NCBI RefSeq assembly: GCF_000772945.1
Contig: NZ_JPVN01000001.1
Coordinates: forward strand, 1-64,000
Length of the DNA: 64,000 nucleotides
Origin: Ureibacillus manganicus DSM 26584
GTDB taxonomy: Bacteria > Bacillota > Bacilli > Bacillales_A > Planococcaceae
Direction of reading: 5' to 3'
Shown here: in pieces, positions 10,737-12,440 of the stretch
Position numbering within the stretch: position 1 is the stretch's first letter
How the letters are laid out: every line of letters starts with the position of its first letter
Made by a program: the position numbers and the translations under genes
The notes under the pieces: model-generated
What the model was told of the DNA's origin: nothing
The model's input: the letters and a program-made list of their open reading frames with translations, nothing else
The model's database searches: none

Positions 10737-12440
10737 TTAATAAACTCTGAAAAATTCATTCAGACGGTCGATTAATTCTTCTTTTGCACATTCATAAGAT
10801 TGACCTGTACGTCGATCTACTACTGTTACAATTCCTTCACTTGCTTTCTTTCCTACAATAACTTGGACTGGTAATCCAATTAAATTCGCATCTTTATATT
10901 TTACATCAATTGAAAGTTGTCGGTCATCAAACAACACCTCAAATTGATATGTTAATAAAATGTTATAAAGCTGTTCTGATAGTAACCATCCTTCTTCATG
11001 ATCAACACACTCAGTTATTAAATGCACATCAAACGGAGCTAGTGAATTCGGCCATATAAAGCCTTTTTCATCCTGATACATTTCTGCAGCAACCGCGAAC
11101 AATCGAGAGACCCCAAAACCATAAGTACCCATAAGGATCGGTTTAGAAACCCCTTGTTCATCGAGAAAAGATGCATTCCATTGCTCTGAATAAGCAGCAC
11201 CTAATTTGAAAATGTGCGCCACTTCATGCCCTTTTGCAAATTGAATAATACCATTTCCATCAGGCGAAGGTTCTCCTTCTTGAATATATCTTAAATCTGC
11301 ATATTCATTAATAGCAAAATCTCGTTCAGGATTGACATTTACATAATAAGAACCTTCCTCATTACCAAAAGAAATCCCATTGCAAATGGATTTTATTCCA
11401 AAATCAGCAATTACTTTTACATGAACAGGTAACTTTATAGGACCTACATATTTTGTAGTACATCCAAACAGTTCGCTAACCAATTTTTCATCTGCTAGTT
11501 TTAAACTCTGCACATTCAAAACGTTTTTTAATTTAACCTCATTTAATATGTGGTCACCTCTATATAGGACGACAATGAGTTCTCCATTAAGTTGATAGAC
11601 ATTTGTTTTGATGATTCTATCAGCTGGAATGTCGATGTGAGTTTGAAAATCATCAGCAGAAACACCTGTATCGCTAATTTTTTCCTTTATTAATTCTTTC
11701 ATTTCACAATGAGGTATTGTAGTTTGTAACGTTACTTTTGCTACATCAAAGTTTACTGCAAAATCCGATTGGTTCGATTGGGCTATAGTCACTTCACCGT
11801 TTTCTGATAAAACTACATATTCATGTGACAATTCACCACAGTAACTCCCTAAGTCTGCTAAAACCTTTTTATAAGGCAAGCCTAATCTTCGAAATATTGC
11901 GGAATAGACTTGATCGATTTTTTCATAAAACTCTTCAAGATTTTCCGTCGTATGGTGAAAAGAATAAACATCCAGTGTTAAAAATTCTCGGTTTTTGAAC
12001 ATTCCATTGATGTTTAGTTCATCACGATATTTCGTTTGTATTTGATAGAGTACAAAAGGTAATTGTTTGTAAGATGTTATTTTTTCTTTCACAATTAATG
12101 AGAGGATTTCTAAATGGGAAGGTGTTAGGTAAAGTTCATCCTTGTTCCGATTGTTTAATTGAAAGAGTTCTGCACTGTATGCTTGCCTTTCATTTGAATC
12201 CAACGATTGTAATGAATTCAAAGTTGGTAAGGATACTTCATTTGCTGTAAGTACATTCATTTCTTCCCGAATTATTTTTTCTATCTTTTGTAATACACGT
12301 TTACCTAAAGGTAATAGGGAAATAAACTTGTCATTTTGTGAGTGTATATAACCAGCGCGTATTAATCGTTCGTTTGGATCCAAAGGTTTAATAGAAGGCA
12401 TTTCATGGTTTGTTCTTATAAATGCTAAACTTTGTTTCAC
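10737..12440 (-). CDS. proS: Divergent prolyl-tRNA synthetase (bacterial type), possibly altered in activity
   Basis: A class II synthetase of the bacterial ProRS type sits at the standard proS position between rseP and polC. I choose the GTG at 12440 (AAAGGAG, 8-nt spacer), giving 567 aa starting MKQSLAFI; B. subtilis ProS is 564 aa. Catalytic core, inserted editing domain (about 230-400) and anticodon-binding domain are all recognisable: [51 protein letters not shown]. Many residues I expect to be near-invariant differ: the THEE motif reads SHLE, [20 protein letters not shown] reads [28 protein letters not shown] reads [8 protein letters not shown], EVGH reads EVAH, and [10 protein letters not shown] reads [10 protein letters not shown]. 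The frame is intact with normal neighbours. It may be a fast-evolving ProRS or a paralogue retained beside a canonical enzyme elsewhere. Confidence 0.85.
   Translation of the reverse strand: [567 protein letters not shown]

Follow-up and report, generated by a model that had tools for sequence, protein, structure and literature searches.

What a prolyl-tRNA synthetase (ProRS) is kept for, once many of the residues that define it have changed, is the question raised by one gene of the window, that is, the whole 64,000-nucleotide stretch of DNA that was analyzed. The gene occupies 10737..12440 on the minus strand and, by profiles and predicted fold, encodes a family II (bacterial-type) ProRS-derived protein of 567 aa with a GTG start; a ribosome-binding site (AAAGGAG; 12449..12455, minus strand) was read from the sequence 8 nt 5' of that start. 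It is flanked by rseP (12635-13936) and polC (6044-10384), with all three genes on the same strand. The initial annotation described a full-length 567-aa ProRS-like frame with three domains. Indeed, the frame is intact and spans exactly 10737-12440 on the minus strand, and the core, editing, and anticodon domains all exceed their Pfam cutoffs. The protein scores 469 bits against TIGR00409 (cutoff, 306.7), which identifies it as a family II ProRS by descent, and 530.5 bits against NF006625, under the cutoff of 558. An AlphaFold2 model (48 rows) reached a mean pLDDT of 86 and a TM of 0.93 versus the E. faecalis ProRS 2j3l.

The class II and proline-pocket motifs had been described as altered, and alignment to 45 canonical rows confirmed this (all coordinates below are on the minus strand). 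At the site where the majority of canonical rows have THEE, the protein reads TPSHLE, with SHLE at residues 108-111 (12108..12119) and E. coli T109 and E111 replaced by S and L. The motif 2 region (residues 133-162; 11955..12044) keeps Arg139, Glu141, and Phe153 and has lost RPRFG and the Lys of MKDAYSF. In the ADSGxxGG segment, which we take to be the proline-binding loop, ADLGSYCG (11835..11858) replaces the majority form ADSGSIGG. EVGH has become EVAH (11214..11225), and in the motif 3 region (11103..11132) C443 is changed to T and Arg446 is kept. The ESGRW segment is not gone, as had been claimed, but replaced and one residue shorter than WQESGRWEAYG. The surviving class II residues are thus Arg139, Glu141, Phe153, His409, and Arg446; Glu141, Phe153, and the motif 2 and 3 arginines presumably serve ATP binding, and with these four kept the protein may retain residual adenylation.

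The INS editing domain (residues 222-403; 11232..11777) matches PF04073 weakly, at 54.7-58.2 bits (cutoff, 25.5) versus 90.8-107.9 bits in six of the less altered relatives, which we refer to below as stage 1. Lys278, equivalent to the editing lysine Lys279 of E. coli, is kept (11607..11609), as is Asp350 (E. coli numbering). The GxxxP loop reads KYVGP (11439..11453; E. coli G336 to K), and Tyr365 stands at the position of E. coli His369 (11346..11348); we assume editing roles for H369, D350, and GxxxP. Within the anticodon-binding domain (residues 464-567; 10740..11051, by Pfam and alignment), RQLSIDVKY replaces RxERAGVKF (E514L, R515S, G517D, and F520Y; 10896..10922), and this loop, residues 512-520, presumably contacts the anticodon.

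A comparison over 177 columns, each invariant in ≥95% of the canonical rows (n = 45), showed changes beyond chance: the protein keeps 61/99 in the N-terminal catalytic part, 23/32 in INS, 21/26 in the C-terminal catalytic part, and 14/20 in the anticodon domain, where loop 514-520 is eroded and the anticodon determinants are not conserved. The claim of a conserved C-terminal half is therefore only partly right, since in this copy, as opposed to most relatives, erosion extends to the INS and anticodon domains. By residue signatures chosen after the alignment was known, 6/17 synthetic residues are lost (the 45 canonical rows differ in 1/765 cells), together with 3/13 editing residues. Judged from these replacements, the window protein has very probably lost proline charging. 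Its five surviving class II residues and intact predicted fold would also suit a working but unusual ProRS, or one devoted to a new amino acid or tRNA in the manner of ProRSx of Streptomyces, a reading on which the distribution of the divergence bears (see below).

A second proS, for which the initial annotation had proposed a search, is present, and the refutation named there, which required the lack of a second proS, does not hold. The genome of the window gene (G000, 99.99% complete) contains a single family II ProRS and, as its only other ProRS, an intact family I (archaeal/eukaryotic-type) enzyme, so the possibility that the window gene is the sole ProRS was rejected. The family I gene (G000:C9:59696-61126) scores 582.5 bits against TIGR00408 (cutoff, 437), has the RPTSE motif, and gave no match to the PF04073 editing domain in a profile search. 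By sequence, there is a separate charging enzyme in addition to the window gene, as a trans-editing ProRS requires. A T-box leader (108.8 bits; L254:4433-4651) directly precedes the family I gene. Such a leader stands before family I in every one of four genomes scanned (G000, G001, G002, and G011); scans of 15 family II loci and of the window gave no T-box. By our reading, GAAACCUACC at the presumed specifier of the leader would be compatible with the Pro codon CCU. Because the other ProRS belongs to a different family, the window gene is not a recent duplicate. Two alternatives had been offered, a divergent functional enzyme or a retained paralogue with another role and a canonical ProRS elsewhere, and the second fits best: the protein is retained, probably for a different role, and the genome encodes an intact ProRS at a different locus, but recent duplication does not stand.

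Free-standing PF04073 proteins number two in this genome: YbaK (193 bits, above its cutoff) and a YbaK-like protein at L242 (G000:C62), which scores 58.7 bits versus the YbaK cutoff of 153.25. The latter also occurs in G005 and G011 and is possibly an uncharacterized ProXp-type deacylase. No NCBIfam model by the name of ProXp-ala was matched in this genome, and a search pattern for tRNAPro gave no match. With YbaK and a sub-cutoff relative as the two free-standing PF04073 proteins and no match to a ProXp-ala model, a compensating ProXp-ala was rejected.

All 25 genomes of the genus (g1) have a family I ProRS above cutoff and 23/25 have family II. The wider survey covered 250 genomes of the family, evenly drawn from a larger group; an order-wide draw returned genomes already included, and the scope stays family-wide. 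Family I exceeded its cutoff in 170 of the 250 and family II gave a match at 1e-30 in 224 (216 above cutoff), with both types in 145 genomes, II only in 79, I only in 25, and neither in 1 (90% complete). We call a family II protein divergent if it scores <700 bits on TIGR00409, a line set after the scores were known (divergent proteins reach ≤681, and the next score is 716). Divergent proteins occur in 54/250 genomes (23 from g1, 22 + 8 from g3, and 1 from g7), all of them among the 145 with both types and none among the 79 with family II only (hypergeometric P = 7.7e-13, a value that ignores kinship). Family II scores as canonical in 91/145 genomes with both types; thus, family I alone is insufficient for the change. 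The II-only and both-type genomes were aligned in part, as the 30 best-scoring canonical rows plus 5. Divergence confined to genomes with a family I ProRS argues against the working-ProRS reading, as do pocket residues that vary between sister species with no settled new set and, in the g3 lineage that we call clade X, a deletion N-terminal to the THEE site (about E. coli residues 77-103). We regard a working ProRS of unusual or new specificity as improbable.

Family II is absent from two genomes of the same genus (G011 and G015) and from all 4 g2 and 19 g5 genomes drawn. G011 and G015 have two PF04073 matches each, as many as G000 has in free-standing form, and the g2 genomes (G025, G043, G060, and G075) have family I as their only ProRS and no PF04073 match (0/4). 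These g2 genomes apparently lack INS-type tRNAPro proofreading. Because family II and extra PF04073 proteins are both absent in some genomes, the role of the window gene must be dispensable. In 10/10 relatives checked, rseP adjoins family II, a position that marks the window gene as the resident synthetase. In eight genomes without family II (L274-L281: two of the genus of the window, two g2, and four g5), polC comes next after rseP, and tblastn (E 0.01) found no family II remnant in any of the eight.

Such clean absences, together with a graded series from canonical proteins through loss of the synthetic site and alteration of both sites to absence of the gene, could reflect slow decay of a redundant gene toward loss, with no current function. 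The window copy is, however, under selection. Pairwise dN/dS (Nei-Gojobori, with dS saturated in many pairs) between the window copy and its nearest relative (G000-G001) is 0.166 (bootstrap 95%, 0.116-0.226), against 0.045 for family I of the same pair. Since this is far below 1, the window gene is no pseudogene, as had been argued initially, and with its open frame the value led us to reject sequencing error as well. The upper bound of 0.226 and the lack of internal stops in 54/54 divergent proteins make decay without function improbable. In the same pair, dN/dS is nearly equal between domains (N-terminal catalytic, 0.17; INS, 0.16; anticodon, 0.18; C-terminal catalytic, saturated), which indicates that the whole scaffold of the window copy is kept, not INS alone. 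Among the 40 closest g1 pairs listed, dN is higher in family II than in family I in 39, the exception being the closest pair, G005-G006; family II nonetheless stays well under a dN/dS of 1.

The divergence arose repeatedly. A tree of 76 rows (28/104 family II rows were left out: 17 canonical, 4 reference, and 7 similar g3 rows) placed the divergent g1 proteins and the g7 row in a single clade and the others in clades that branch from within the canonical g3 proteins; g3 rows grouped with Sporosarcina, and a g8 row grouped with Planococcus. By parsimony, loss at the synthetic site (at least 2/17 residues) requires five changes. One of these is G168, which is otherwise counted as canonical; the 54 divergent proteins thus need four, and by this measure divergence has at least four origins. 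A common origin of clades E, F, and X is possible.

The residues lost are unevenly distributed over the domains. Invariant columns of the N-terminal catalytic, INS, C-terminal catalytic, and anticodon parts are kept to 66, 91, 63, and 89% in g1, to 72, 93, 68, and 96% in the 22 full-length divergent g3 rows, and to 33, 70, 38, and 57% in clade X. Loss in catalytic columns exceeds that in INS plus anticodon columns in g1 (one-sided Fisher P = 1e-4) and in clades C (2e-4), D (6e-4), E (2e-5), F (1e-4), and X (2e-5), by a count that treats the 177 columns as independent and is less biased than the signatures. The contrast is not significant for the single g7 row (P = 0.085) or for the window sublineage of G000, G001, and G022 (P = 0.068), and it is absent in five canonical controls from both-type genomes (P = 0.85). 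By the signatures, all 54 divergent proteins have lost 2-13 of 17 synthetic residues; 36/54 have lost none of the 13 editing residues, and 45/54 keep Lys279. The relative G018, for example, resembles canonical ProRS in INS (59%) and the anticodon domain (65%) as closely as a canonical control does (60 and 62%), but in the catalytic parts it reaches 57 and 55% versus 79 and 72% for the control.

Retention of the INS and anticodon domains with loss of the synthetic site fits a full-length trans-editing factor. We propose that the resident bacterial-type ProRS was displaced when a family I ProRS lacking the editing domain took over charging and that, after this takeover, the old protein would repeatedly have been kept as a dedicated trans-editing factor. 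Such a protein would hold tRNAPro via its anticodon domain, its INS domain would remove wrongly attached Ala, and its synthetic site would be free to decay. Editing by E. coli ProRS is reported to need anticodon G35/G36 and hardly the acceptor stem (PMC3973320; PMC11295145), and the K279A enzyme is reported to be editing defective (PMC3973320). The parts kept in the divergent proteins are those that editing needs. Competition of complete ProRS with EF-Tu over misacylated tRNA has been described as possible (PMC4787780). Deletion of INS from E. coli ProRS lowered amino acid activation 1,200-fold (PMC12547528); such support of activation cannot explain the retention of INS here, because the synthetic site is lost in the same proteins. 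Taken together, the pattern of kept and lost residues suggests that the stage 1 relatives probably edit in trans.

The window sublineage would have gone one step further, with the anticodon loop, the GxxxP Gly, and His369 changed and the editing Lys and Asp kept. It belongs to a later stage reached by 14/54 divergent proteins (G000, G001, G016, G022, the pair G004/G013, and the eight members of clade X), where G016 is represented by the larger piece of a gene split at contig ends over two contigs. In these 14, G336 is changed and H369 is replaced by Tyr or Phe without exception, K279 is changed in 9, and both R515 and G517 of the anticodon domain are lost in all. Retention of the anticodon domain averages 95% across the 40 rows of stage 1 and is 64% in the 14 later-stage rows. 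All 15 of the 54 rows without H369 (the 14 plus G192, which has H369R) also lack G517, although row-wise Fisher values for such residue pairs ignore kinship. On the tree, each loss corresponds to four changes, and over four independent pairs the association of H369 with G517 is not significant (sign test P = 0.25). In three rows (G003, G008, and G012), G517 is lost and H369 is kept; this suggests that erosion starts in the anticodon loop. A recent-looking paired change was seen in G192 (L219, g3), which has H369R and G517D; its clade members G207, G222, and G224 keep both residues.

The paired losses could instead mean that the window sublineage and clade X have given up editing as well as charging, leaving a pseudoenzyme with a new role, e.g., as a sensor or binding partner. 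Clade X (8 g3 genomes, L222-L229; ProRS relatives of ∼534 aa) comes closest to this description: 12-13/17 synthetic residues are lost, Lys279 is lost in 7/8, and H369F and G517D/E are present in 8/8, yet all eight frames are open and dN/dS is 0.08-0.11 over the whole gene (six pairs) and 0.03-0.16 by domain. Thus, something besides Lys279-based editing can be selected in these proteins. The window protein shares with clade X an aromatic residue for H369 and R515S (8/8), G517D (6/8), and G336K (4/8), and on the tree these changes were acquired by separate descent. The window protein, however, retains Lys279 and Asp350, we found nothing that points to a partner, operon, or regulation, and H369 was independently lost only four times; we consider a pseudoenzyme in both lineages unlikely. 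A repeated path, leading first to a full-length, editing-only ProRS and then, once in the window sublineage and once independently in clade X, to a selected pseudoenzyme that has lost its charging, editing, and anticodon determinants and serves some new role, is a tentative proposal that we would sooner doubt than accept. From its residues, the window protein is most likely a weakened or respecialized deacylase; whether it edits today is a closer call that leans slightly toward no. For the locus as a whole, we narrowly favor a displaced ProRS that became a trans-editor in relatives and was changed further in the window copy.

These proteins amount to a natural, repeated experiment on what persists when a synthetase is freed from charging. 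If stage 1 trans-editing is real, it would illustrate how cells might rely on an archaeal-type ProRS despite its missing editing domain. The anticodon loop and the editing pocket are lost together, which offers a testable link between sites distant in sequence. Profile searches would name such proteins proline--tRNA ligase, which is probably the wrong function and matters for lists of essential genes and drug targets.

Compared with bacterial ProRSs containing INS (TIGR00409; 2j3l and the E. coli enzyme), the window protein has the same domain order, fold, editing Lys and Asp, and motif 2 and 3 arginines. It differs in the proline pocket, motif 2 loop, ADSGxxGG, GxxxP, His369, and anticodon loop, and its genome holds another ProRS. 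The free-standing INS-like deacylases (PF04073), such as ProXp-ala and YbaK, share its editing fold, and Ala-tRNAPro, the substrate of ProXp-ala, is presumably that of the stage 1 relatives too. For recognition, ProXp-ala uses the acceptor stem, whereas the INS domain of ProRS relies on the anticodon domain. ProXp-ala and YbaK are single-domain proteins (PMC11295145), so the window protein, with 567 aa and three domains, is not ProXp-ala. ProRSx of Streptomyces is likewise a second, diverged ProRS; it is described as arising from duplication and ligating Pro to an unusual tRNA (PMC9437257), whereas the window gene represents the genome's resident ProRS, and the enzyme that accompanies it comes from another family. 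Among the literature matches listed, judged by title and the start of the abstract in a collection mostly outside subscription journals, none concerned a full-length, charging-dead ProRS that edits. The closest parallel in logic is ThrRS-ed, which is probably the Ser-tRNA(Thr) hydrolase of NF011500 and has no catalytic domain, whereas the window protein keeps an altered one; its enzyme family and editing fold also differ. In some archaea, one enzyme charges and another with an anticodon domain proofreads in trans (PMC11295145). Most likely, the relatives of the window protein work like ThrRS-ed, with the window copy not having all the features of such an editor, and if the stage 1 proteins do edit in trans, they would be the ProRS counterpart of ThrRS-ed.
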